Virus record (IMG/VR): IMGVR_UViG_3300031576_000081
Span: 1-47,743 of that record
Reading direction: 5' to 3' (one strand)
Origin: a virus
DNA: 47,743 nt
Shown here: positions 1 through 12,252 of the stretch, piece by piece
How the letters are laid out: each line of letters opens with the position of its first letter
Position numbering within the stretch: the stretch's first letter is position 1
Made by a program: the position numbers and the translations under genes
The notes under the pieces: model-generated
The model's database searches: none
What the model was told of the DNA's origin: nothing
The model's input: the letters and a program-made list of their open reading frames with translations, nothing else

Positions 1-174
1 ACCGTCGAAGAGGTGCGCGCCGGCAAGCGCGGCCTGACGACGCACAACGACGTGAACGCGGCGTTCAAGGGCGGCTCGCATTGGGATCCCGGCACGGGGT
101 TCCCGATGGCCTGGTTTCTCCAGAGGGTGCGCTTCTGGTACGCGGAGATCGTCAAGGATCGTGCGACCCCCTGA
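1..174 (+). CDS. Endolysin, C-terminal 57 codons only (second copy of the gene at 46845)
   Basis: The window opens inside the amidase gene whose full copy is at 46845-47426. What is visible is the C-terminal part, including the second half of the zinc site (THNDVNAAFKGGSHWDPGTG). It ends with RATP before TGA, whereas the full copy ends RAS. It is truncated by the window edge, not by mutation. In a circularised map it is the same gene as the full-length copy. Confidence 0.9.
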   Translation, partial: TVEEVRAGKRGLTTHNDVNAAFKGGSHWDPGTGFPMAWFLQRVRFWYAEIVKDRATP

Positions 175-185
175 TGGGAGTCTAG

Positions 186-410
186 GTGTGGCGACCCCAG
201 CGCAAGGACATCCTCTTCGTTCTCGGACTCGTGGGCATCGCCCTCGAGGAAGCGCGGGTGTTCGGCAATCCAAGCGAGACCCTTTTGCTCGTCTTCGCGG
301 CGATGATTGGTTTGCCGCTCGTCTTGCGCGCAGACGAGCATCGCAAGGAGACGCGCTCGAACAACGATACGCCGAATGGGCCACGCTCTTCGGATGGGAG
401 CGACGCATGA
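186..410 (+). CDS. Small membrane protein, holin-like
   Basis: This 74-residue protein starts at GTG 12 bases after the endolysin stop. Residues about 9-21 (ILFVLGLVGIALE) and 33-49 (TLLLVFAAMIGLPLVLR) form two hydrophobic segments, followed by a charged, polar tail ending SSDGSDA. Size, two membrane segments and position directly after the endolysin fit a holin or holin partner that permeabilises the membrane for lysis; no family signature confirms it. The stop overlaps the next start (ATGA). A near-identical copy lies at 47438-47662. Confidence 0.7.
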   Translation: MWRPQRKDILFVLGLVGIALEEARVFGNPSETLLLVFAAMIGLPLVLRADEHRKETRSNNDTPNGPRSSDGSDA

Positions 411-511
411 AAGCACCGGGCGCGCTCGCCCGCTGGGCATTCACGTGGACATACCTGGTCGTCATCGGGGCGCTTCTCCTGCTCGACGTTCTCGTCGGAG
501 GGCTCCCGTGA
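407..511 (+). CDS. 34-residue single-pass membrane peptide of the lysis cassette
   Basis: The ORF begins with the ATG that overlaps the preceding stop and ends TGA at 509-511, where the next gene begins. It encodes a short basic N-terminus and one long hydrophobic helix (TYLVVIGALLLLDVLVGG). Overlap on both sides implies translational coupling within the lysis operon. A role as holin partner or antiholin is inferred from position only. The start of a second copy runs off the window end at 47659. Confidence 0.6.
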   Translation: MKAPGALARWAFTWTYLVVIGALLLLDVLVGGLP

Positions 512-804
512 AGCGGCGAGCGGAGAGCGTGCTCAGCTACGGGCGCGAGCATCTGCACGTGCTCGCATACCTCGTGCTCGCCGTGATGCTTCTGGTCGCG
601 ATCACGAGGGTCGAGCTGCTCGCCCGCGAGACGCGTTCCTCGCTGTGCAAGTTCAGACTCGGACTTGAGCAGCGCGCCTCCGACCTCGAGGCCTTCCTCG
701 CGCTTCACCCGAACGGGATCCCAGGCCTCTCCGGCAACGACCTGCAGCGCTCGCTCGATCAGCAGCGCGCGACGCTCGCTTCGCTTTATGACCTCGAATG
801 CTGA
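508..804 (+). CDS. Single-pass membrane protein of the lysis cassette
   Basis: GTG at 508 overlaps the previous stop, giving 98 residues. A membrane helix (HVLAYLVLAVMLLVAITRV, about residues 17-35) is followed by a mostly helical exterior or periplasmic segment rich in charged residues. The layout, N-terminal anchor plus coiled region, resembles i-spanin-type proteins, but an o-spanin partner is not evident unless the lipoprotein at 1232-1573 plays that part. Function is inferred from location. Confidence 0.6.
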   Translation: MKRRAESVLSYGREHLHVLAYLVLAVMLLVAITRVELLARETRSSLCKFRLGLEQRASDLEAFLALHPNGIPGLSGNDLQRSLDQQRATLASLYDLEC

Positions 805-817
805 TGAAGGAGAACTC

Positions 818-1147
818 ATGAAGCAGTATCTCAAGGCCTTCGCAGCCGCCGCGTCTGCGGCGGGTGCGGCCCTACTCCTCGGGCTCGACGATGGGTCGCT
901 CTCGAGTGATGAGATCGGCCTCATCGTCGGCGCGTTCGCCGGAGGCTTCGGATTCACATGGGCCGTGCCGGCTCATTGGCTTCGCTACGGCAAGGCCATC
1001 GTCTCAGGCCTCGTGACCGGGGTGGCGGCAGCGCTCGCCGCCCTTGACGACGGCGCGATCTCAGGCAACGAGTGGTACACGATCTCCCTCGCGCTCGTCG
1101 GCGGTCTCGCGGCCTTCGCGACCCCGAACCGCCCTGCGCCTGCCTGA
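818..1147 (+). CDS. Holin-like multi-pass membrane protein
   Basis: ATG at 818 follows an AAGGAG site at 806-811. The 109-residue product has hydrophobic stretches at about residues 6-22, 36-50, 60-75 and 88-101, separated by short acidic turns (LDDGSLSSDE and LDDGAISGNE, which repeat each other). The internal duplication of a two-helix unit joined by an acidic loop is visible directly. Size, topology and position as last gene before a strong terminator fit a phage holin; of the lysis-cassette membrane proteins this is the best holin candidate. Confidence 0.75.
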   Translation: MKQYLKAFAAAASAAGAALLLGLDDGSLSSDEIGLIVGAFAGGFGFTWAVPAHWLRYGKAIVSGLVTGVAAALAALDDGAISGNEWYTISLALVGGLAAFATPNRPAPA

Positions 1148-1170
1148 CTGTCTCTCGCTTCTCCCCCAAA

Positions 1171-1218
1171 GCCCTCCCGCCGTTTTCCCCTCCTTGCGGC
1201 GGGAGGGCGGCTTTTTTT
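1171..1218. terminator. Strong intrinsic terminator at the end of the late/lysis operon
   Basis: A perfect 12-base-pair stem (GCCCTCCCGCCG at 1171-1182 with its complement at 1197-1208), a 14-base loop, then GGC and seven T (1212-1218). It lies between the last rightward lysis gene and the leftward lipoprotein gene. The T tract favours rightward termination; the stem could also serve the opposing transcript. Confidence 0.9.
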
Positions 1219-1231
1219 CGTGCGTGGTCGC

Positions 1232-1573
1232 CTAGTCGATCTCCTCACGAGCACGGTCCATCGCAACCGCGCACGAGACGCAGTAGTCCTGCACGCGCGA
1301 CGCCTGCTCGGCGAGATGCTCCCGCGCGTCATCCTTCGAGATCGTCCCCGCTTTTCGCATGCGCTCGAGGAGAGCGATGTAGCCGTCCGTGACCGACGGC
1401 AGGTCGCTCACGCCATCGGCCCCTCCGTTCAGAACCTCCTGCGCGATGCGTAGCTCTGTCGCCGCGAGCTCGAGCTCGTCGAAGCTGCGATCTAAGTCGG
1501 ACGGACCACCACCGCAGGCGGTGAACATGAGTACAGCTGCAATCGTTGTGCCGAGCACGGCCGCTCTGGACAT
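1232..1573 (-). CDS. Secreted lipoprotein, moron candidate
   Basis: The 113-residue product starts with MSRAAVLGTTIAAVLMFTAC, a classical lipoprotein signal: basic n-region, hydrophobic core and a cysteine at residue 20 followed by GGG. The mature part is acidic and helical with two further cysteines (DYCVSCAVAMD). The start has an AAGGGG site just upstream. It is transcribed against the lysis genes and is set off by the terminator, the usual arrangement of a gene expressed from a prophage. Prophage lipoproteins often block superinfection or alter the envelope; that role, or an o-spanin role, is inference. Confidence 0.75.
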   Translation of the reverse strand: MSRAAVLGTTIAAVLMFTACGGGPSDLDRSFDELELAATELRIAQEVLNGGADGVSDLPSVTDGYIALLERMRKAGTISKDDAREHLAEQASRVQDYCVSCAVAMDRAREEID

Positions 1574-1637
1574 CTAGCTTTCCCCTTCTGGGTGTGGTAG
1601 GAACACGTCTGTCGTCAAGGTACGTCGTCAGGGAGGA

Positions 1638-1961
1638 ATGACGGATCTCGCGGAGTATCGCCGAGCTTTCGCGGAACTTGCGTGCCAATGCTCGAACCAG
1701 CGTCCCGAGCGACTTCGCGTAGGTCCTCTCTCACTCCTCGTCTGTCTGACCTGTGAACGCTTCGTCACCGTTGAACGCCCTCCGGACGAGCTCGCGGTTC
1801 TTCGTCAGGACGTAGAGGTTCTCAGGATGCTCGCCGACGCCTTGCGGAGCGAGGCTGCTCGCCTTGCCGGTGGATCTCTTGACGAAGGCCAGCCAGCTCT
1901 CCGCGGATATTTGCAAGTTCTTCCCGGAGGTCGCGGATCTCTTTGTCCCGATCAGTCGTAA
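1638..1961 (+). CDS. Uncertain small ORF with cysteine pairs, overlapping the repressor gene
   Basis: ATG at 1638 has a very good ribosome site (GGGAGGA). Residues about 15-40 contain CQC and CLTC pairs that could bind zinc, followed by a helical stretch (DVEVLRMLADALRSEAARLAG). The last 140 bases run antisense to the leftward repressor gene, and the final 35 residues look non-protein-like. It may be real and end in an overlap, or be chance. If it is not real, 1574-1821 holds only the lipoprotein promoter region. Confidence 0.4.
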   Translation: MTDLAEYRRAFAELACQCSNQRPERLRVGPLSLLVCLTCERFVTVERPPDELAVLRQDVEVLRMLADALRSEAARLAGGSLDEGQPALRGYLQVLPGGRGSLCPDQS

Positions 1962-2283
1962 CCGCCGTCTCGAAGTACCCCGGATCGAGGTCGAGAACGG
2001 CAGCGATTTCCTGGCGGCGGAAGTACGGCGGCTCGCGTCGCTTCTCATACGCGGTGTAGGCGCCGAGGGACAGATGGAGCCTCGCGGCGACGCGCTCCTG
2101 GGTGAAGTACCGAGCCCGCTCCTTCTCACCACGGTCTAGCGCCTCCCGCCGCAGCGTCTCTCGCGTCGCCCGGATCCGGGCACAGATCGGGGGCGCGAAC
2201 TGCTCGGTCAACAGGCGGCGAAGTCTCCGCAAAGTGCGACGTTCTGTCGCTGCAGAGTTCGTGCGTGCCCTTGAAGTGTGCAT
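1822..2283 (-). CDS. XRE-type repressor of the lysogeny switch
   Basis: The 153-residue product holds a basic N-terminal third, a helix-turn-helix (about residues 63-95, including QERVAARLHLSLGAYTAYEK and RQEIAAVLDLDPGYFE) and a C-terminal heptad coiled coil (KEIRDLREELANIRGELAGL), suited to dimerisation. No S24 self-cleavage domain is present, so induction must differ from lambda CI. An upstream ATG at 2292 exists, but the leftward promoter would start transcription near 2288, so the ATG at 2283, nearly leaderless, is preferred. It diverges from the regulator at 2308. Confidence 0.75.
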   Translation of the reverse strand: MHTSRARTNSAATERRTLRRLRRLLTEQFAPPICARIRATRETLRREALDRGEKERARYFTQERVAARLHLSLGAYTAYEKRREPPYFRRQEIAAVLDLDPGYFETAVTTDRDKEIRDLREELANIRGELAGLRQEIHRQGEQPRSARRRRAS

Positions 2284-2299
2284 TGAGTACATGTACTAT
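2271..2299 (+). promoter_or_regulatory. Rightward early promoter of the switch
   Basis: A -35 TTGAAG at 2271-2276 and a -10 TACTAT at 2294-2299 are separated by 17 bases. Transcription would begin near 2305-2307, directly at the ATG of the 2308 gene, making a leaderless message. The -10 overlaps the leftward promoter's -10 and the 12-base palindrome. Confidence 0.7.
2286..2297. promoter_or_regulatory. Palindromic operator candidate between the divergent regulators
   Basis: AGTACATGTACT is a perfect 12-base palindrome that covers part of both -10 elements and the leftward start. Its position makes it the natural binding site for either of the two flanking XRE proteins. Confidence 0.6.
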
Positions 2300-2323
2300 C
2301 ACTGCACATGTCCTCCGTGTCAA
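2295..2323 (-). promoter_or_regulatory. Leftward repressor promoter of the switch
   Basis: On the minus strand a consensus -35 TTGACA (2323-2318) is followed, after 17 bases, by GATAGT (2300-2295). Start would be near 2288, five bases before the repressor ATG at 2283. It shares -10 sequence with the rightward promoter, so polymerase cannot occupy both at once. Confidence 0.7.
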
Positions 2324-2550
2324 CGACAGAGGCGACCCCGAGCAGGCCCCGACCCAGTGTGATCCGCCTCGTTCAAGCACGCGCCGAGGCCGGGCTGACT
2401 CAGGAAGAACTCGCTCACGCGACGAAGATCTCGATCGCGTCGATCGGCAAGTACGAGCGCGGCGAGCGCAGCCCTCGTGGCCCACGCCTTCGCCGAATCG
2501 CGGCGGTCACGGGCAAGCCAATCCCCTGGTTCTTTGAGGACGCAGCGTGA
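2308..2550 (+). CDS. XRE-family regulator, Cro-like position
   Basis: The 80-residue protein is almost entirely one helix-turn-helix domain: VIRLVQARAEAGLTQEELAH, then ATKISIASIGKYERGERSPR, and a short tail. It is the first gene of the rightward early operon, starting at or within two bases of the predicted transcription start. By position it is the Cro or early regulator counterpart to the leftward repressor. The next gene overlaps by four bases. Confidence 0.85.
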   Translation: MSSVSTTEATPSRPRPSVIRLVQARAEAGLTQEELAHATKISIASIGKYERGERSPRGPRLRRIAAVTGKPIPWFFEDAA

Positions 2551-2783
2551 CCACCCACCCCCTGCACGACCTCGCGCTCCACTCCACTCGCGAGCGCATC
2601 CGCTCGGCGATCGGCCCCTGCGTCGACGTCGACCCAGAGATCCACGCCGCTCGCATCAGCGAGCGCGTGCTGCACGTGCGCATTCCTCAGCTCGAGCTGA
2701 TCGAGCACCTAAACGACCGAGCGCGCCGCTTCGCCGAGCAGACGAAGAGCGACGCGCTCGAGACAGGAGGACGATACCGATGA
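2547..2783 (+). CDS. Small early protein of unknown function
   Basis: GTG at 2547 overlaps the preceding stop; its own stop overlaps the recT start. The 78 residues are helical and charged with no recognised motif. Coupled translation between a regulator and recT suggests an early accessory role; nothing more can be said. Confidence 0.65.
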   Translation: MTTHPLHDLALHSTRERIRSAIGPCVDVDPEIHAARISERVLHVRIPQLELIEHLNDRARRFAEQTKSDALETGGRYR

Positions 2784-3934
2784 CCAGCCAGGCGCTCGAA
2801 CAGAGAACGCCCGCGCAGGATCTCGTCGCGCGCGTACGTGGCGAGGAGTTCCAGTCGCAACTGGCGCTCGCGCTACCGGAAGGCGTGCGCCAGGAGCGCT
2901 TCGTGCGCGCGGTCGCGACCGCGCTTCTCGACAACCCCGACCTCGCAGATCCCGAGAAGGTCGAGCGGGCGTCGGTCTTCCAGTCGCTCTTGAAGTCGGC
3001 TCAGGACGGCCTCGTCCCGGACGGGCGCGAGGCGGCGCTTGTGATCTTCGGTCGCAAGGCGCAGTACCTCCCGATGATCGGCGGCATGAGGAAGATCGCC
3101 GCCGAATCCGGGTGGACGATCCGCACGGCCGTCGTTCACGAAGCCGACGAGTTCGAGGTCGAACTCGGCGTCGACCCGCGAGTGCGGCATGTGCCGGTTC
3201 GGCCGGGGTCAGACCCCGGCGACCCGATCGCCGCCTACGCAGTTGGCGCGCACGGCGACGGCCGGCGTGAGGTGGAAGTGATGACCGTCGACGAGATCGA
3301 GCAGGTGCGCGCCGTCTCACGCGCGAAGGATCGCGGCCCCTGGGTCGATTGGTGGTCTCGCATGGCCGAGAAGACGGTCGGCCGGCGGCTCTTCGCGAAG
3401 CTCCCGCTCGGTGACCGCGAGCGCATCGAGCGCGTGCTGGAAGCCGCGCGCATGGAACCCGCCGATTCCGCAGCAGCCCTCTATGGCCCGAGCGCCCGCG
3501 CTGCCCTCGCCGCCGGCGAGACCTTCGACCACGAGACGGGTGAGATTCTGCCGGCGGGGTCGGCAGAAGGCGAGGAGCGCCCTGCGCTCGCTTCCGCCAC
3601 TCAGCAGGCCGAGGCGGCCTCCTTCCCCCTGGGGGGCGATGAGCCCTCTTCGCAGGCCGCCTCGGTTCCTGACTCGGATGAGGAGCCTTCGCTCGGGACC
3701 GCGCTCGGCGAAACCGTCATTCCCGTCGGCGGCAAGGACTTCAAGGGCAAGACGCTCGACGAAGCCGCAGCGCTGGGCGAGATCGGATGGGAATGGCTGG
3801 GATGGTCCGCCAAGCCCGAGCGCCCCTGGAACAAGGCGGGCGCGAAGGAGGCCGCCTTCGGCGAGGCCGTGCGGGCGTACGTCGCGCAGCACTCCACCCT
3901 TGACGCAGCTGGCGAAGGAGATCCCGACGCGTGA
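2780..3934 (+). CDS. recT: RecT-family single-strand annealing recombinase
   Basis: RecT proteins coat single-stranded DNA and anneal it to complementary strands. The central signature is clear: ERASVFQSLLKSAQDGLVPD, GREAALVIFGRKAQYLPMIG and the following GMRKIA (about residues 54-100), then VMTVDEIEQVR and WWSRMAEKTVGRRLFAKLP. The total of 384 residues is longer than typical RecT (about 270); residues 255-384 form a low-complexity linker and a small second segment (GKDFKGKTLDEAAALGEIGW and on) of unknown role, perhaps a protein-interaction tail. Its usual exonuclease partner may be the SbcCD-like pair downstream. Confidence 0.9.
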   Translation: MTSQALEQRTPAQDLVARVRGEEFQSQLALALPEGVRQERFVRAVATALLDNPDLADPEKVERASVFQSLLKSAQDGLVPDGREAALVIFGRKAQYLPMIGGMRKIAAESGWTIRTAVVHEADEFEVELGVDPRVRHVPVRPGSDPGDPIAAYAVGAHGDGRREVEVMTVDEIEQVRAVSRAKDRGPWVDWWSRMAEKTVGRRLFAKLPLGDRERIERVLEAARMEPADSAAALYGPSARAALAAGETFDHETGEILPAGSAEGEERPALASATQQAEAASFPLGGDEPSSQAASVPDSDEEPSLGTALGETVIPVGGKDFKGKTLDEAAALGEIGWEWLGWSAKPERPWNKAGAKEAAFGEAVRAYVAQHSTLDAAGEGDPDA

Positions 3935-4389
3935 TACCGGTCGAGCAACGGTTCTCGTTCGACTGCATGACGGCCTGCATCGCCTCAATCTTCGAGTGCT
4001 CGTGGGAGGACGCTCCGCTGCTCTGCGATCCCGATACGAACGAGCCGGTAGATCAGTGGCTCCGCGAGATGACGCTGTGGATGCGGGCGCACGGCATGAA
4101 CCCGTGGCACTTCGGGATCTGGGGTGACGAGAAGCCCTATCTAAAGTTCGGCTCATCCGAGATCCGATACGTCTTTCGCCCGCCCTGCTACTGGCTGGGC
4201 GGCGTGAAGAGTTCGCGATACGACGGCGAGCATTGCGTCGTCATGTACGCGGATGAGGTTCTCTGGGATCCGCACCCCCAGCGTGAGATGGGACATCTCG
4301 GGTTCACGACTGCCGAGGTCATCGTTCCCTGGCAGGAAGTTCCGCTCCCCGAGCTCGGGCGACGAATCAAGGGGGCGGCAGCGCCGTGA
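3931..4389 (+). CDS. C39-like cysteine peptidase fold protein
   Basis: GTG at 3931 overlaps the recT stop. The 152-residue product opens with VEQRFSFDCMTACIASIFE: Gln6 and Cys12 match the oxyanion-hole glutamine and nucleophile of papain-like C39 peptidases. GEHCVVMY supplies His101 and LWDPHP supplies Asp113, completing a Gln-Cys-His-Asp set in the right order and spacing. No signal peptide is present, so it would act in the cytoplasm. Its substrate is unknown; its place in a recombination operon is unusual. Confidence 0.65.
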   Translation: MIPVEQRFSFDCMTACIASIFECSWEDAPLLCDPDTNEPVDQWLREMTLWMRAHGMNPWHFGIWGDEKPYLKFGSSEIRYVFRPPCYWLGGVKSSRYDGEHCVVMYADEVLWDPHPQREMGHLGFTTAEVIVPWQEVPLPELGRRIKGAAAP

Positions 4390-4610
4390 TCGCTGAGCCT
4401 CCCGTGCGCGAGGACGGCCTCTGCGCTCACTGCGGCGGCCCGCGCAAGTTCCCCAAGCGACACCAGAAGGGGGTCGACCCGGCGTTGTACGAGCGCGACC
4501 CCTTCTGCGCGACATCGTGTGCGCGGGCGTGGCACGGCGTTCCACTCACCAATGTCCTCGGCGGCGATCCGAGCGAGCGACGCGGGCGCTATGAGCGGGT
4601 GGCGGCGTGA
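4386..4610 (+). CDS. Small zinc-binding protein
   Basis: 74 residues with two cysteine pairs: CAHCGG near the N-terminus and FCATSCARAWH near the middle, spaced to bind one zinc. The pattern resembles FCS/MYM-like or ribosomal zinc knuckles in small phage proteins. It overlaps neighbours by four bases on both sides and is thus made together with the peptidase-like protein and SbcD. Role unknown. Confidence 0.6.
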   Translation: MIAEPPVREDGLCAHCGGPRKFPKRHQKGVDPALYERDPFCATSCARAWHGVPLTNVLGGDPSERRGRYERVAA

Positions 4611-5746
4611 CCCGCATTCTGGTCTCGGGCGACTTCCAGATCGGCGCCGGCCAGACCTTGGGCCGCACGCTCGTCGACCAGGACGAGCTGCTCGCGCGCA
4701 TCGTCGACATTGCCGAGCGCGAGCAGACCGAGCTCTTTCTGTTCCTGGGCGACGCGTTCCAGAACCGCTCGACGAACCGCGACCAGGACGAGGTCTTCAT
4801 GCGCTTCCTCGTCGCGATGTCGCGCGTGTGCCCGATCCTGCTCCTGGGCGGAAACCACGACTGGCGCGGGTACGAACGCGCGTCGACTGTCGGCATCTTC
4901 CGCGAGATGGGCGTCCGGGTGGCGCTCGAGCCGGGCGTGCACCGCTTCGGCAAGGTCGCCGTTGCGACGCTGCCCTGGGCCGCTCTCGGTCACCTCGTCG
5001 CGGCGAGTGACGGCGGCGAGCGCGCTCGAACGAACGAGGAGGCGGCTGCTCACCTGGTGTCCATCGCGGGCGGATTGCGTTCTCAGATCGCGCAGGATGA
5101 GATCGCGATCCTGGCCGGGCACTGGGCGGTGACGGGGGCATCGCTACCGACCGGCCTGCCAGTCGAGATGCTGAAGGAGCCCGTGGTCGAGATCGCTGAC
5201 CTGCTCGCGCAGAAGTGGGACGCGGTGGTCTTGGGGCATATCCACAAACCTCAGGTGATGAGCCAGGACCCGCTGGCGCTCTACGTCGGGTCGCCTTGGG
5301 CGAACGACTGGTCGGAGGCGTCGAATCCTCATGGCGTTTGGATCATGGATTCCGCGATGAGTCCAGGCTCGGGCTGGGTCGCGATTCCCGATCACCCGTT
5401 CATCACCTTCGAGCCCGAGGTCGGGATGGATCTCGATGCGCTGGCCGAAGGTGCCGCCGCGGTGGAGGATGCGATCGTGCGCGTGCAGATCAGCGCGACG
5501 CCCGAGCAGGCGCGCAGGCTCGACCTGGCGGCGCTCAAGGAGGCGCTCTACGCCGCTGGCGCCCACTTCATCGCCCCGATCCAGCTTGAGATCGTGAAGC
5601 CGGAGCGCGCCCGTATCGAAGGCCTGAACGAGGATCTGGACGAGCTGGCGGCGCTCGAGCTGTGGCTCGATGCGGCGGGCGTCAACGGAGACCGGGCGGA
5701 TGCGCTGCGCGAGCGCACACAGAGCTATCTGGGGGCGGTGCGATGA
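4607..5746 (+). CDS. sbcD: SbcD/Mre11-type metallophosphoesterase nuclease subunit
   Basis: With SbcC this enzyme trims DNA ends and cuts hairpins. Metal-site motifs occur in order: SGDFQIG (residues 8-14), FLGDAFQNRS, LLGGNHDWRG, LAGHWAV and VLGHIHKPQ. Motif I reads D-F-Q where Mre11/SbcD normally has D-x-H, a departure in a metal ligand. The 379-residue length is normal for SbcD. It partners with SbcC at 7319, but two ParB-like genes stand between them. Confidence 0.85.
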   Translation: MTRILVSGDFQIGAGQTLGRTLVDQDELLARIVDIAEREQTELFLFLGDAFQNRSTNRDQDEVFMRFLVAMSRVCPILLLGGNHDWRGYERASTVGIFREMGVRVALEPGVHRFGKVAVATLPWAALGHLVAASDGGERARTNEEAAAHLVSIAGGLRSQIAQDEIAILAGHWAVTGASLPTGLPVEMLKEPVVEIADLLAQKWDAVVLGHIHKPQVMSQDPLALYVGSPWANDWSEASNPHGVWIMDSAMSPGSGWVAIPDHPFITFEPEVGMDLDALAEGAAAVEDAIVRVQISATPEQARRLDLAALKEALYAAGAHFIAPIQLEIVKPERARIEGLNEDLDELAALELWLDAAGVNGDRADALRERTQSYLGAVR

Positions 5747-6507
5747 ATGCCCATCCTCTCGCAGACGTCTTCCCGGCCATGTCTCAGGAGGAGTTCACGC
5801 GCCTCGCGGACAGCATCGAGCGCGACGGTCTCCTCGATCCGATCACGCTGCTCGATGGGGCGATCCTTGACGGTCGCCATCGGCAGCGCGCCTGCGATGA
5901 ACGCGGCGTCGAGCCGCGCTATGAAGAGTGGAATCCAGCCTGCGGCATCACTCCACTTGAATGGGTAATCGCGCGCAATCTTGATCGTCGACAACTAACA
6001 ACTGGGCAGAAGACGGCTCTTGCAGTTGAACTCGAACCGCGACTGGCTGAGGCGGCACGAGAGCGGGAGAATGCCAGGAAGAAGGGACTATCATCAATTG
6101 ATGATAGTCCCCCGCCAAAGGTTTACCAGCGAAGTTCGGCGCACCTCGCGGGGAAACGATTCGGAGTTGGCGCGGCCTCTGTCGGAAGACTCAAAGCGGT
6201 TCGTGACCGAGATCCCGTCGTCTTCGAACGCGTCAAGACGGGGGAACTAACAGTCACGAAAGCGCGGAGTCTGATCGGCCTGACTCCGGACCATCGTGCG
6301 CTGACCAGCCACACCAGGACGAAGCTCGCCGACGCGCTCGGGCCACTGCGGATGTACCTCAAGAACTGGGACGAGTCTCGGCTATACGGCTTGACGCCAA
6401 AAGAGGCGCGACGTCTGCTGCGGCAAGTCCAGGAAGTCGATGCGGTTCTCTTCGAGGTAGAGCGCGCGCTCGAAGCCCGGACCGTTGTTTCTCGCGCGCT
6501 GAGATGA
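5743..6507 (+). CDS. ParB-like protein with central HTH region
   Basis: ATG at 5743 overlaps the sbcD stop. The N-terminal ParB/sulfiredoxin-like domain is seen in EEFTRLADSIERDGLLDPIT and LLDGAILDGRHRQRACDERG (residues 15-58), where DGRHR stands at the nucleotide-binding box position. A helical DNA-binding middle (GKRFGVGAASVGRLKAVRDR) and a coiled C-terminus follow. ParB-family proteins are CTP-dependent clamps that load at palindromic sites. The gene contains a 28-base perfect palindrome at 6084-6111. Codon use between about 5950 and 6300 is less GC-rich than in neighbouring genes, suggesting a separate origin. Confidence 0.7.
   Translation: MNAHPLADVFPAMSQEEFTRLADSIERDGLLDPITLLDGAILDGRHRQRACDERGVEPRYEEWNPACGITPLEWVIARNLDRRQLTTGQKTALAVELEPRLAEAARERENARKKGLSSIDDSPPPKVYQRSSAHLAGKRFGVGAASVGRLKAVRDRDPVVFERVKTGELTVTKARSLIGLTPDHRALTSHTRTKLADALGPLRMYLKNWDESRLYGLTPKEARRLLRQVQEVDAVLFEVERALEARTVVSRALR
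6084..6111. repeat. 28-base perfect palindrome inside the ParB-like gene
   Basis: Half-site GGGACTATCATCAA is followed at once by its reverse complement, with the centre at 6097/6098 and no spacer. It encodes the linker KGLSSIDDSPP of the ParB-like protein. It could be a parS-like loading site, an autoregulatory operator or a hairpin substrate. Confidence 0.9.
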
Positions 6508-7322
6508 GGAGCCCGATGACGACAGCAACAAAGCCGATCCCGTCTGCGTTCGATGCATTGTCGCGCTATGACGGGCGCAATGAAGAGACCGCGAAGCTGA
6601 GCCGGCTGCCTCTCGATGCGATCCTGATTCCCGATTTCCAGCGCGATAGGATCGCGCCCCACATCAAAAAACTGACTGCCGAGTACGACGCGACGGCATT
6701 CATCTTTCCCATCGTCGCGCTCTTCAAGGGGAACCTCATTGACCTCGATGGGCAGCAGCGCCTCGCGGCGGCCGAGGCGCTCGGCGAGCAGCGCGTCGTC
6801 TGCGTTCTGATCGAGGGCATCGCATCGCGCGAGCGGCTCGCCGATCTCTTTCTCAAGTTCAATCGCGACCGTCGTCTCCTGAACGCATTTCAGAAGTTCG
6901 TCGCGGCGCTTGATGCCAAAGATCGCGGCACTCTGTCGATTCACGCGATCCTTGAAAGGCATGGGAAGCATGTCGCGAAAAAGGCGTCGGCGAACGGCGG
7001 GATGCCTGCTGGCGCGGTGACGAGTGTCCACGCGAACGGCGGCAACGATCGTCTCGATCGCGTCGTGCGGACTATCAGGCAGGCCTGGCCGACGCCAAGT
7101 CAGGAAGCACACGAGGCTGAGACGATTCTCGGGCTCGCACTCTTCCTCAAACGGGACTGGGAGAAGATCGACGACAACCGTCTGATTTCCGTCCTTCGGA
7201 AGCACCACCCTGGTTATCTCCTTGAGGCAGCCGATCATCAGCGAGGAGCTTTGCGCGCCTCATACAGCGATTACATCCGCGATCTCTACAACAAAGGTCT
7301 GCGGGGGAAGGGTCGCCTGTGA
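6504..7322 (+). CDS. Second ParB-like domain protein
   Basis: ATG at 6504 overlaps the previous stop. The 272 residues contain a ParB-type core, with LPLDAILIPDFQR followed later by FKGNLIDLDGQQRLAAAEAL (about residues 76-95), where DGQQR occupies the place of the GERR box. The C-terminal half is helical and unrelated to ParB HTH. Similar stand-alone ParB-like proteins occur in many phages with no known job. It ends by overlapping sbcC, so both ParB-like genes are locked between the nuclease and ATPase subunits. Confidence 0.65.
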   Translation: MRSPMTTATKPIPSAFDALSRYDGRNEETAKLSRLPLDAILIPDFQRDRIAPHIKKLTAEYDATAFIFPIVALFKGNLIDLDGQQRLAAAEALGEQRVVCVLIEGIASRERLADLFLKFNRDRRLLNAFQKFVAALDAKDRGTLSIHAILERHGKHVAKKASANGGMPAGAVTSVHANGGNDRLDRVVRTIRQAWPTPSQEAHEAETILGLALFLKRDWEKIDDNRLISVLRKHHPGYLLEAADHQRGALRASYSDYIRDLYNKGLRGKGRL

Positions 7323-9514
7323 ACCCTCTGTCCCTGCGCGCCACCAACTACCGCACCTTCGAGGATCTCTACTTCGAGTTCCCCCCGGGTTGCCTCGCGA
7401 TCCTCGGAGCGAACGGAGCGGGCAAGTCCTCGATCGTCAACGTCATCGACCTGTGCCTGTTTGGACCCGAGGGACGCTCATTCGCCGACTACCTGACCGA
7501 CGACGGCGACTCCACCGAGCTCGAGCTCGAGCTGACCTTCGCGCACGCGGGCGAGACCTATCGCGTGCGCAGAGGCTTCTCCGCGCACGGGCGCGGGAAG
7601 ACAACGCTCGACTTCGAGCGGCGCGTCGGGGAGTCTGACGAGTATGAGCCGCGGAGTCGCGAGTCGCAGAAGGAGACGCAGGCGCTGATCTCCGGGACGC
7701 TCGGCCTCTCGCGCGCGACCTTCCGCGCGTCGGCCTTCCTCGCGCAGGGTGACAGCGCTGCCTTCACCGAAGCGACGCCGCGGGAGCGGCTGTGGATCCT
7801 CGCCGACGGGCTCGGGCTCGGTATCTGGGAGCGCCTGCGAGACGCCTGCCGGGTCGACAAGCGCACTGCCGAGCGCGAAGCCGCCGAGCTTGCCGGCCGG
7901 ATCGCGCTACTCGAGGAAACAGGCGGCGACGTGGAGGCGCTGGGAAGGGCGCGCGACGAGGTGCGTGCTGCGGGCGGCGCTGCTCTCGAAAGCCATGCCC
8001 GCGCCGAAGCGTCGCTGGCTCGAGCCGCCGAGCAGGTCTCAGCGCTCGACGAGGCAGGCGCGAGCTATCGCGCGGCGCACGCGCAGCTCGAGGCTGCGCA
8101 GGCGCGCCTGCGCGAGCGGCGCTCACTCGTCGAGCGTGCGGCGGCTGCGAAGCTCGAGGCGGTCTCCGTCCAGCAGCAGGCTGACGCAATGGGGGCGCCG
8201 GCGGAGAGGCTGGCCGAGCTCGATGAGATTCGCGTCGGACAGGAAGCCCTGCGCGAGCAGCGCCGTGAGCGCGAGGCCATGCGCGACAGCTACCTCGCAG
8301 ACGCCAAGGACGCTCAGCGACAGGCCGTGACGCTGGTCGACGAGCGCCAGGCCGTGTACGCCTCTCTCGTGACCTTGCAGCGCCAGGCCGCCGAGCTGAA
8401 CGAGGCCGGGCGCGAGCACATCTGCCCCACCTGCGAGCAGGTGCTCGCCGGCGCCGCTCACTCCACCGCGCTCGCCCGCATCCGTGAGCAGCTGGGCGAC
8501 GCGGAGCAGCGGGTGGATGCCTACGACGAGCGCATCGCAGCACTCAGGGAGCGCGAGAACGGGCGCAGGGCTGCCGCCGAGAAGATCGAGATCCCCGACG
8601 CGCCGAGCGACGAGAACGTCTCCGCGCTCACGCAGGAGATCACCCGCTGGCGCGCTACGGAGACGAGCCTGGCCGTCGCGAACCAGAAGCTCGCTGCGCT
8701 CGCGACCACGATCGCCGAGGTCACGCCCGAGCTGACCGCCGAGGTCGCCCGTCTCGCCGGCGAGCTCGTCTCCGCGCAGGACGCGCTAGCCGCTCTCGCC
8801 GAACCCGAACCGGGAGCGCTCGAGCAAGCGCAGGTGGCCGCTGTCGCCGCCAAGGCTCAGCTCGACAGCGTGTCGCAGCGGCTTACCGAATCGCGCGCCT
8901 CGCTCATTCGCGCGGACTCCGCGCTCGAGGGAGCGTACAAGATCGCCGAGGAGCTGACTTCGTGTCATGCGAGGCAGGAGCGACTCCTCGGCGAGCTCGA
9001 CCTGCTCGCCCTGCTCGAGCGCGCCTATGGGCGCGACGGCATTCCGGCGCTGATCGTCGAGTCCTCGGCGATCCCGCAGATCGAGACCGAGGCCTCGCGC
9101 ATCCTGAGCGCGCTCGGCACCAGCTATCGAGTCGAGCTACGAACGCAGCGCGCGCTCAAGTCGGGCGACGGGCTCGCGGACACGCTCGACGTGGTGGTGC
9201 TCGGCGAGGCGGGCGAGCGGGCGTACGAGAGCTTCTCGGGAGGGGAGAAGTCCCGCCTGAACGTCGCCCTCAGGATTGCCCTGGCACGCCTGCTCGCGCG
9301 CCGGCGCGGAGCGGAAAGCCGGATCCTCGTCCTGGACGAGATCGAGTACCTCGACGCACCGGGGCAGATGGCGCTCGCGAACGTGCTGAAGGAGCTCGCG
9401 CTTTCCGACTTCGACAAGGTCGTCTGCGTCTCGCACGCAGACACTCTCCGGGACGTGTTCGACAACGCGATCACGGTGGAGAAGGACGGCAACCGCTCGA
9501 GGATCGCAGCGTGA
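7319..9514 (+). CDS. sbcC: SbcC/Rad50-type SMC-like ATPase
   Basis: This is the ATPase partner of SbcD. Walker A GANGAGKS lies at residues 30-37; long alanine- and arginine-rich coiled coils flank a zinc hook (ICPTCEQVL, about residue 370); the ABC signature SFSGGEKSR is near 638 and Walker B ILVLDEIEYLD near 669, followed by CVSHAD. At 731 residues it is shorter than bacterial SbcC (about 1050) because both coils are short, as in other phage forms. GTG start overlaps the upstream stop. Confidence 0.9.
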   Translation: MNPLSLRATNYRTFEDLYFEFPPGCLAILGANGAGKSSIVNVIDLCLFGPEGRSFADYLTDDGDSTELELELTFAHAGETYRVRRGFSAHGRGKTTLDFERRVGESDEYEPRSRESQKETQALISGTLGLSRATFRASAFLAQGDSAAFTEATPRERLWILADGLGLGIWERLRDACRVDKRTAEREAAELAGRIALLEETGGDVEALGRARDEVRAAGGAALESHARAEASLARAAEQVSALDEAGASYRAAHAQLEAAQARLRERRSLVERAAAAKLEAVSVQQQADAMGAPAERLAELDEIRVGQEALREQRREREAMRDSYLADAKDAQRQAVTLVDERQAVYASLVTLQRQAAELNEAGREHICPTCEQVLAGAAHSTALARIREQLGDAEQRVDAYDERIAALRERENGRRAAAEKIEIPDAPSDENVSALTQEITRWRATETSLAVANQKLAALATTIAEVTPELTAEVARLAGELVSAQDALAALAEPEPGALEQAQVAAVAAKAQLDSVSQRLTESRASLIRADSALEGAYKIAEELTSCHARQERLLGELDLLALLERAYGRDGIPALIVESSAIPQIETEASRILSALGTSYRVELRTQRALKSGDGLADTLDVVVLGEAGERAYESFSGGEKSRLNVALRIALARLLARRRGAESRILVLDEIEYLDAPGQMALANVLKELALSDFDKVVCVSHADTLRDVFDNAITVEKDGNRSRIAA

Positions 9515-9690
9515 CCGCCCAGGCGCTGCCACGGCTGCTTGATAGGAAGGCGCTCGCCGAGGAGCTTGGCGTGAAGCTCGCGACCGCTGAGCGAATCATG
9601 CGCCACGTTCCGAAGATCACCCTCGGCCGGCGCGTGTACGTGACCGAGCAGGCCGTCGTCGCCTATCTGAGGAAGGCTGAGAGCGAGTGA
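9511..9690 (+). CDS. Small winged-HTH protein, excisionase-like
   Basis: 59 residues starting at GTG that overlaps the sbcC stop. The sequence LLDRKALAEELGVKLATAER followed by a basic turn and RRVYVTEQAVVAYLRK is the standard MerR/excisionase-type helix-turn-helix with a wing. It could be the phage excisionase, although it is 1.7 kb from the integrase, or a local regulator. Confidence 0.7.
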   Translation: MTAQALPRLLDRKALAEELGVKLATAERIMRHVPKITLGRRVYVTEQAVVAYLRKAESE

Positions 9691-10816: not shown

Positions 10817-11296
10817 GTGAGCGCGTCGAACCCCACGAGGGGAGCGTCCTCAATTGAGGTCGTCGTGAGTGAGCTAGAGAAGATCGCGCGAGTGATGCGC
10901 ATGGTGCAGGACGACTGTGAAGCGGAGGCCATGTCCATCGACGGCAAGCCCTTCACGGCTGGGGTGGTCGCTGAGCAGTTCGGGAACTTCTGGCCGAAGT
11001 CAAGGCCGTTGCTCGTGCTGTGGAACTGCTCGCCGCAGCTTCTAACCAAGAGCGAGGGCCGGACGCATGAGCGGGCCGCTGCCGGAGAACGAGACACGAC
11101 GCGCGCCATCCTCGGTCTTGCTGGGGCGATGAGTGCTGCCGCCGATCAGGCGCGGGCCATGACGGATGCCGAACTCGGCGAACTGCTCCTCACGGGTCGC
11201 TGGACGACGATCGAGATTCACGAAGCTGGTCGCAGGCTTACTCGTGCAGCACAAAGCCAAGAAACGAGTCACTCAAGCAGCGAGGCGAGTTCATGA
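10817..11296 (+). CDS. Hypothetical protein spanning a junction repeat
   Basis: The GTG at 10817 has GAGAGGGA upstream, giving 159 residues; a GTG at 10865 in the same frame (VSELEKIARVMRMVQDDCEA) is an alternative. Residues about 75-90 are coded by the second 27-base junction repeat, read in a frame different from the SNQERGPDA tail seen elsewhere, so the gene may be a fusion of two shorter genes or carry a frameshift. The 3' end overlaps the convergent integrase by 28 bases. Confidence 0.5.
   Translation: MSASNPTRGASSIEVVVSELEKIARVMRMVQDDCEAEAMSIDGKPFTAGVVAEQFGNFWPKSRPLLVLWNCSPQLLTKSEGRTHERAAAGERDTTRAILGLAGAMSAAADQARAMTDAELGELLLTGRWTTIEIHEAGRRLTRAAQSQETSHSSSEASS
10823..10851 (+). repeat. 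Direct repeat flanking the integrase, copy 1
   Basis: Matches 12202-12229 across 28 bases with a single inserted A. Contains GAGGGGAGCGTCCTC. It is followed by a 12-base palindrome CCTCAATTGAGG (10848-10859). Confidence 0.75.
11044..11070 (+). repeat. 27-base gene-junction repeat, copy 2
   Basis: Exact copy of 10000-10026. The ATG at its end would give only a 21-codon ORF, whereas the longer reading frame runs straight through it. Confidence 0.85.
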
Positions 11297-12252
11297 TCGG
11301 TGATCTCCCGCAGCGGCTTCGCATGGGAGTAGACGTCGAGCGACATGGACGCCTTCGCGTGCCCGAGCCTGCGCGCGAGCTCGACCGCGACGACGCCCTG
11401 TTGATGCCAGAGCGACCCGCGCCGGTGGCGCAGGAGGTGCGGGTGGATCATGCTCGCGTCGCGGAACTTGCGCCACACGGTGACTCGCGAGGTTCGGAAC
11501 GGCACGCGTTCGGCAAGAGCCTCGGCCACGAGCGGCAAGCACGGGACGAGGCGACTCGTGCGCTGCCCCTTCACGGCCTCCCTGCGAAAGCGTACGGCTT
11601 CGTCCTGGATATCATCGCGGCGCAGGCTCAGAGTCTCGGACACGCGGCTCCCGAGCTGCTCCATCGCGAGCGCGGGGTAGCGCACGTCGTCAGTGAGCGC
11701 GCGGAAGAGCGCGATCACGTCCGGCGCGTCGGGCGGATCGAGCTCATCTCTGACGACGCGTGGAAGCTCGACTCGGCGAGAGCGCGCGACGTTCGCACCG
11801 TCGGCGAGGTCGAGGATCATCCGAAGCTGCCCGACGTAGCCCACGACCGTCGCCGGGGAGAGCTCCTCGACGAGGTCGCCGACCCAGGCCACGACGTCCC
11901 CGACGGCAAGCTCATCGACCACGGTCGTTCCGAGATCCTCAGCGATGCGCTTCTGCCGCGATCGGTATCCGCTCCGAGTCGAGTCGGATATGCGGCGCTT
12001 CCCCGCGAGCCACTCGTCCTGCAGCTCGCCCACGCTCAGCGCGGGGGAGACCACGCGGCGGAGCTCCACCCTCGGGTTCAGACCGGCCGCGAGCCACTCG
12101 GAGATCACGGCCTTGCGAGTGTTCGCATCCTTCATCGTGCGGAAGGTTCCGCCGTGCTCGAGATGCGTGTAGCGCCCGCCGCGGCGGTACTTCACATCGA
12201 AGCGTCGAACCCCCGAGGGGAGCGTCCTCGCTCGCACGTACAGCGTCGCCAA
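11269..12252 (-). CDS. int: Tyrosine-family integrase
   Basis: The 327-residue enzyme joins phage and host att sites. Catalytic residues are complete: Arg in QLGSRVSETLSLRRDD, Lys in EAVKGQRTS, HLLRH, GHAKASM and the Tyr nucleophile in LDVYSH. An arm-binding N-terminus (MATLYVRARTLPSGVRRFDV) and a SAM-like core-binding domain (WLAGKRRISDSTRSGYRSRQ) precede them. The start is TTG at 12252, with a weak ribosome site, suggesting low expression. It points against the early operon, overlaps the 3' end of the neighbour and shares its upstream region with the 12459 gene. Confidence 0.95.
   Translation of the reverse strand: MATLYVRARTLPSGVRRFDVKYRRGGRYTHLEHGGTFRTMKDANTRKAVISEWLAAGLNPRVELRRVVSPALSVGELQDEWLAGKRRISDSTRSGYRSRQKRIAEDLGTTVVDELAVGDVVAWVGDLVEELSPATVVGYVGQLRMILDLADGANVARSRRVELPRVVRDELDPPDAPDVIALFRALTDDVRYPALAMEQLGSRVSETLSLRRDDIQDEAVRFRREAVKGQRTSRLVPCLPLVAEALAERVPFRTSRVTVWRKFRDASMIHPHLLRHRRGSLWHQQGVVAVELARRLGHAKASMSLDVYSHAKPLREITDHELASLLE
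12202..12229 (+). repeat. Direct repeat flanking the integrase, copy 2
   Basis: Lies inside the 5' end of the integrase gene, coding RTLPSGVRRF on the minus strand. Its partner is at 10823-10851. Confidence 0.75.

Follow-up and report, generated by a model that had tools for sequence, protein, structure and literature searches.

A window of 47,743 nucleotides of viral DNA, the whole stretch analysed here, contains two divergent genes for DNA-binding regulators, XRE-L and XRE-R, whose predicted promoters share a -10 region. The best explanation, and a probable one, is a CI/Cro-type immunity region in which both regulator genes are placed on one pseudo-symmetrical bidirectional promoter and two dyads provide the control logic. 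The promoter pair is very probably real and functional, and its role as the immunity switch is highly likely. The promoter anatomy is well supported by sequence and by comparison, as are its conservation, both dyads, the identities of the genes, and the occurrence of the module in otherwise unrelated phages. From these we infer the transcription starts, the pairing of proteins with dyads, the lysogenic role of XRE-L, and any bistability. Homologous XRE-L/XRE-R pairs were found in two other viral contigs, at locus L002 of contig G005 and locus L011 of contig G006. The genes of the window that bear on this reading are as follows.

1232-1573, minus strand: small protein whose start is lipobox-like (MSRAAVLGTTIAAVLMFTACGGG), the ORF downstream of XRE-L
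1822-2283, minus strand: XRE-L, a 153-aa helix-turn-helix protein and presumed repressor (HTH_3, E = 2.8e-4, under the cut-off)
2308-2550, plus strand: XRE-R, an 80-aa, Cro-sized XRE protein (HTH_3, E = 3.9e-15), heading the rightward early operon
2780-3934, plus strand: RecT (PF03837, E = 1.3e-27), with a 39% identical ORF in G006 that follows XRE-R in L011 too
9511-9690, plus strand: excisionase-like helix-turn-helix protein (phrog_66, E = 2.5e-4)
11269-12252, minus strand: tyrosine integrase (phrog_1, E = 3.9e-33; PF00589, E = 3.2e-5, under the cut-off)

Two XRE regulators, as named in a first-pass annotation of this DNA, are encoded on either side of the promoter, with the HTH_3 match of XRE-R above the cut-off and that of XRE-L under it. 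Relatives of XRE-L match the RstR-family repressor model NF041951, likewise under the cut-off. The structure model of XRE-L is of low confidence (pLDDT 63) and has a long predicted C-terminal helix at residues 106-141; a PDB search returned no match for this protein. XRE-R is modelled as five helices (pLDDT 82.5), and its PDB matches are weak (the restriction-modification C protein 4yba, E = 3e-4, and 8tac). The small protein encoded at 1232-1573 has no family match above the cut-off and is a possible lysogeny-side gene. A small ORF with a cysteine pair (CxxC-type; 1638-1961, plus strand) is convergent with XRE-L and overlaps its 3' end by 140 bp. A 35% identical counterpart occupies the same place in G006 (L011 1876-2151, plus strand).

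As in a CI/Cro region, divergent DNA-binding regulators flank a promoter-operator region in a presumably temperate phage, the XRE-L match being below the cut-off, and the operon on the Cro side carries early lytic genes. RecT, SbcD, ParB-like proteins, SbcC, and the excisionase-like protein are encoded rightward from XRE-R, and the first four kinds are the early lytic genes. The phage is probably temperate because it encodes an integrase at 11269-12252 on the minus strand. The lysogens implied by the first-pass annotation are supported by the integrase together with the excisionase-like gene. A virulent phage with no integrase, considered from the first scans of the rightward genes, is rejected on account of the minus-strand integrase. 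This integrase is a lone minus-strand gene within a long rightward block, and the G006 integrase is on the plus strand. One ParB-like gene of the window contains a perfect 28-bp palindrome at 6084-6111 (GGGACTATCATCAATTGATGATAGTCCC), which could be a binding site, parS-like or of another kind.

The promoter pair is composed of the following elements.

2271-2276, plus strand: rightward -35, TTGAAG, within the XRE-L coding sequence
2294-2299, plus strand: rightward -10, TACTAT, after a 17-bp spacer
2306, plus strand: predicted rightward start, an A, placed 7 bp past the -10 and by the 18-bp rule of PMC12825309 and PMC10268837
2318-2323, minus strand: leftward -35, TTGACA, within codons 4-6 of the right gene
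2295-2300, minus strand: leftward -10, GATAGT, after a 17-bp spacer, with 5 bp common to the rightward -10
2288, minus strand: predicted leftward start, an A, placed 7 bp past the -10

Both promoters (TTGAAG-17-TACTAT rightward and TTGACA-17-GATAGT leftward) are present exactly where they had been annotated, and the two -10 boxes overlap at 2295-2299, a 1-bp offset. Mutual exclusion of polymerases follows from this geometry, and the proposal of one polymerase at a time is supported. The description of the promoters as face-to-face is incorrect in the convergent sense; transcripts diverge from the shared -10. Both -35 elements are buried in the opposing coding sequence. The predicted starts lie exactly 18 bp apart, and each promoter's -7T pairs with the other's -11A. 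Bidirectional promoters mapped in E. coli and Salmonella most commonly have starts 18 bp apart and this reciprocal -7T/-11A arrangement (PMC12825309, PMC10268837). The reciprocal bases are found in all three loci (TACTATC, TACCCTA, and TACCGTA), and by sequence the geometry of the window locus is that of the published 18-bp class.

The promoter elements are retained in the relatives. With the loci anchored on the right -10, the rightward promoter reads TTGAAG-17-TACTAT in the window, TTGAAG-17-TACCCT in L002, and TTGACG-17-TACCGT in L011, the -35 standing at an equal offset in each. The leftward promoter reads TTGACA-17-GATAGT, TTGGCA-18-TAGGGT, and TTGACA-17-TACGGT, respectively. The 1-bp offset of the -10 boxes is identical in 3/3 loci.

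A chance origin was assessed by scoring all positions of the three genomes as dual promoters, the 1-bp offset having been set beforehand from the window. In the window, the locus outscores all other positions (sum 33; next 28), and none of 60 shuffles reaches this score. The homologous locus is also the best in G005, where its score is reached by 1 of 60 whole-genome shuffles, and in G006 (0/60). Scored alone, each promoter ranks first or second genome-wide on its own strand in each of the three. At the three loci, the GC content of the promoter span is 43-52%, against 67-69% for the genomes. When the first 8 kb of the window are scanned with a simple promoter search, the leftward promoter alone passes, with TTGAAG-TACTAT slightly below the threshold; no other promoter passes in 1-8000. 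A second strong promoter-like site on both strands (TTGACA...CTATAG) occurs at G006 27279 (L155), upstream of a terminase gene, with a different -10 offset and a score of 33.

The coding sequence over the -35 elements points to constraint at the level of DNA. All five serine codons that overlie a -35 (left gene in 3/3 loci, right gene in two) are TCA, a codon that makes up 7-9% of serine usage; the loci are homologous, so these five are not independent events. TCA has been kept though the proteins have diverged widely, and such constraint is therefore indicated.

Start codons were assigned with reference to the predicted transcription starts. The ORF list begins XRE-L at the ATG at 2292. This codon was rejected because it lies upstream of the gene's own predicted start site at 2288, and in the alignment with both relatives the matching start is M4, the next in-frame ATG (2283-2281). 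The predicted leader is then 5 nt for XRE-L and 2 nt for XRE-R (ATG at 2308), and the earlier description of both messages as almost leaderless holds as a prediction. The distance from the left -10 to the left ATG is 11 bp, and the predicted left leader 5 nt, in 3/3 loci. From the right -10 to the right ATG the distance is 8 bp, with a 2-nt leader, in 2/3 loci; in L002 it is 14 bp, the leader is 8 nt, and the predicted right start falls on a T. The predicted start is an A on both strands in the window and L011.

The XRE module is shared by phages of different relatedness. In L002 (contig IMGVR_UViG_3300048904_000182; G005, 35 kb), XRE-R is 64% identical over 70 residues and XRE-L 34-35%. In L011 (G006, 44.8 kb), the values are 58% and about 45-47%. 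G006 is collinear with the window across much of its length, and these two related phages are not fully independent among the three members. G005 shares with the window, and with G006, the XRE pair and no other detectable protein. By this comparison, the module was either transferred between phage backbones or retained during replacement of the remainder. In L002, a xis-like gene and then int come after XRE-R, and a ParB-like gene comes after XRE-L; one control module is thus wired to different operons.

Searches with the single window XRE-L protein returned no relatives in the viral contigs or annotated phages, and queries from L002 and from alignments returned the same two relatives and no further ones. 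Among 396 actinobacterial genomes, one weak XRE-L-like match was found (E 2.7e-6). Most XRE-R matches (L003-L009, L014-L128) were set aside as generic XRE proteins, and those inspected had no homologous partner. A survey of divergent XRE pairs in the fetched loci was uninformative for AT-rich phages, where promoter-like matches are common. A more distant divergent XRE pair is present in L013 (about 2440-2483), with promoter-like elements that overlap at another offset and an inverted repeat, GGCTAG-7-CTAGCC.

Two putative operators were identified in the control region.

2267-2279, both strands: dyad A, GCCCTTGAAGTGT, spanning the right -35; degenerate in the window (4/6 arm pairs)
2286-2297, both strands: dyad B, AGTACATGTACT, spanning the shared -10 and the leftward start; a perfect palindrome in the window

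Of all centers in the three loci, dyad symmetry is greatest at -21.0, over the right -35, and at -2.5, over the shared -10. The best dyad varies from locus to locus. Dyad A is represented by GTACTTGAAGTAC in L002 (6/6 arm pairs) and GTACTTGACGTAC in L011 (5/6), and the center of dyad B is dyadic in all three loci (6, 5, and 4 of 6 arm pairs in the window, L002, and L011). The sequence AGTACATGTACT has no second match at two or fewer mismatches in the 47.7-kb window, where 0.21 are expected by chance. The same scan revealed no dyad near the left -35, and thus no visible left-specific operator. The first-pass annotation had placed one palindrome across both -10 boxes. It does overlap each in part (4/6 bases of the right -10 and 3/6 of the left); its center lies 5.5 bp to the left of the shared -10, and it is one of two dyads that recur across the loci, the other being degenerate in the window. 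The claim of a switch simpler than lambda OR is accurate only in part, since a second dyad recurs over the right -35, degenerate as it is in the window.

In the reading of the first-pass annotation, polymerase exclusion and a single palindrome, contested by the two XRE proteins, would suffice for a bistable toggle. The palindrome and shared -10 are real, and the two polymerase orientations are mutually exclusive by geometry. An equilibrium promoter model with random parameter sets and a Hill exponent of n = 2 or 4, although coarse, gives a different outcome. With a sole operator that blocks both promoters, 0/20,000 parameter sets are bistable at either exponent; one dyad blocking both fixes the output ratio, and a single steady state results. 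With an added site that blocks the rightward promoter alone, 0.1-0.2% (n = 2) or 3-5% (n = 4) of sets are bistable, and a classical toggle, in which each promoter has its own specific site, gives 8% and 20%, respectively. Overlapping promoters are known to switch when a regulator acts unequally on them (PMC4207663, on pLS20, and the Bendtsen analysis that it cites). At basal strength, the E. coli bidirectional promoters measured display little competition between polymerases, except when one direction is made stronger (PMC12825309). A compact bistable switch from the anatomy alone finds no support in the one-dyad model or in this weak basal exclusion, and conservation of the second dyad also argues against a single-site toggle, which is very improbable. 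In terms of the model, the right-specific dyad, not the -10 palindrome, could make the region a switch.

A second alternative is that one promoter works, the opposite -10 and -35 being a by-product of -10 symmetry, and that the other gene uses a different promoter or start codon. The leftward -10, GATAGT, is non-consensus at -12, and bidirectional promoters often yield one non-coding RNA (PMC10268837), both of which would suit this proposal. It is improbable when set against two near-consensus -35 elements conserved at 17-18 bp in 3/3 loci, start codons at short and mostly fixed distances, and the absence of any other passing promoter in the first 8 kb. The pair could instead be an autoregulated accessory module, e.g., antitoxin-like or for superinfection, with immunity controlled elsewhere. 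Neither protein matches a peptidase domain, the antitoxin models DicA and Y4mF are weak matches to XRE-R, and the module is common to otherwise unrelated phages. In the window and L011, however, XRE-R heads the early operon, and xis-like and int genes follow it in L002. The family matches of the two proteins or of their relatives include phage-repressor models, and none of the neighbors scanned matches a toxin family. An accessory role is thus quite improbable.

In the favored CI/Cro-type immunity region, a single sigma-70-type polymerase would occupy the shared -10 in one of two orientations. A polymerase facing right would transcribe XRE-R and the early genes, and one facing left would transcribe XRE-L, probably with the small lipoprotein-like gene. 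XRE-L would be the lysogenic repressor. Bound to the dyad at the right -35, it would exclude only the rightward polymerase, leaving the leftward one; at higher levels it would also fill the shared -10 dyad and silence both directions, i.e., autoregulation. XRE-R would be the analogue of Cro, acting at the shared -10 dyad to shut off XRE-L and later itself. The outcome would be lambda-like with fewer sites. The assignment of XRE-L to the -35 dyad and XRE-R to the -10 dyad is tentative and somewhat doubtful as proposed. One point against this explanation as a whole is that no left-specific operator is visible through which XRE-R could silence XRE-L without silencing itself. Further points against it are the small number of members (three), the degenerate right -35 dyad of the window, the change of best dyad between loci, the longer right leader and start T of L002, the XRE-L match below the cut-off, and the low share of bistable sets (0.1-5%) in the two-dyad model.

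A broader proposal is that the region is a transferable immunity cassette. The choice between lysis and lysogeny would be the orientation of polymerase on a symmetrical promoter, biased by an operator that acts on one orientation, and the first codons of each regulator would encode the -35 of its opponent. This proposal is rather unlikely. Bidirectional promoters are a recent discovery; the E. coli examples tested show low basal activity, and little is known of their control. If true, the locus would be a natural case of promoter symmetry used for regulation, kept while the proteins diverged and common to otherwise unrelated phages. The control region is small (about 55 bp and two short genes), making a direct test of polymerase orientation as a life-cycle decision feasible.

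The locus resembles the bidirectional promoters described by Warman, Grainger, and colleagues (PMC12825309, PMC10268837). The likeness includes a shared -10, 18-bp start spacing (predicted here), the reciprocal -7T/-11A, divergent RNAs, and exclusive polymerase binding. Those promoters differ in that the five tested E. coli cases are low in basal activity and one RNA is often non-coding, whereas here both -35 elements are near-consensus and inside the opposing genes, and both RNAs are predicted to be near-leaderless mRNAs for phage regulators.

Lambda OR (PRM/PR with CI/Cro) and the PY54/N15 switch (PMC4488713) also have divergent repressor and Cro genes. The promoters are separate in both (PRM and PR in lambda), and the three operators of lambda permit independent blocking; the window locus departs from this arrangement, as its -10 boxes share 5 bp and two dyads are visible. 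PY54 is similar in having leaderless mRNAs for both regulators and a single Cro operator (PMC4488713). The pLS20 Pc/Pr switch is also comparable: the XRE regulator RcoLS20 acts on overlapping or coinciding divergent promoters of unequal strength, with polymerase as a competitor (PMC4207663). In contrast to the window locus, it governs conjugation through a single regulator, uses a DNA loop to reach a second operator, and lacks an opposing Cro-like gene.

Mycobacteriophage BPs has a small repressor gene divergent from a Cro-like gene (rep gp33 and cro-like gp34; PMC4557955). Its operator, a footprinted two-site form, pairs a 12-bp palindrome close to the -10 of the early promoter with a degenerate site at the -35, 5 bp away (PMC4557955). 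The dyads of the window have this layout, with centers at -21 and -2.5 relative to the right -10 and ~6 bp between arms. The sequences are not alike, being GTAC-type here and not CGACATATGTCG. In BPs, OR and ORep are 113 bp apart and the promoters are separate, whereas the promoters of the window coincide. Repressor activity in BPs requires attP inside rep; for comparison with this integration-dependent immunity, the integrase gene of the window (11269-12252) does not adjoin XRE-L and is ~9 kb away. A literature search, drawn mostly from papers free of subscription, returned no report of a phage switch on one bidirectional promoter. Both components are of kinds already known, and what would be new here is a compact CI/Cro-type switch built on a bidirectional promoter.
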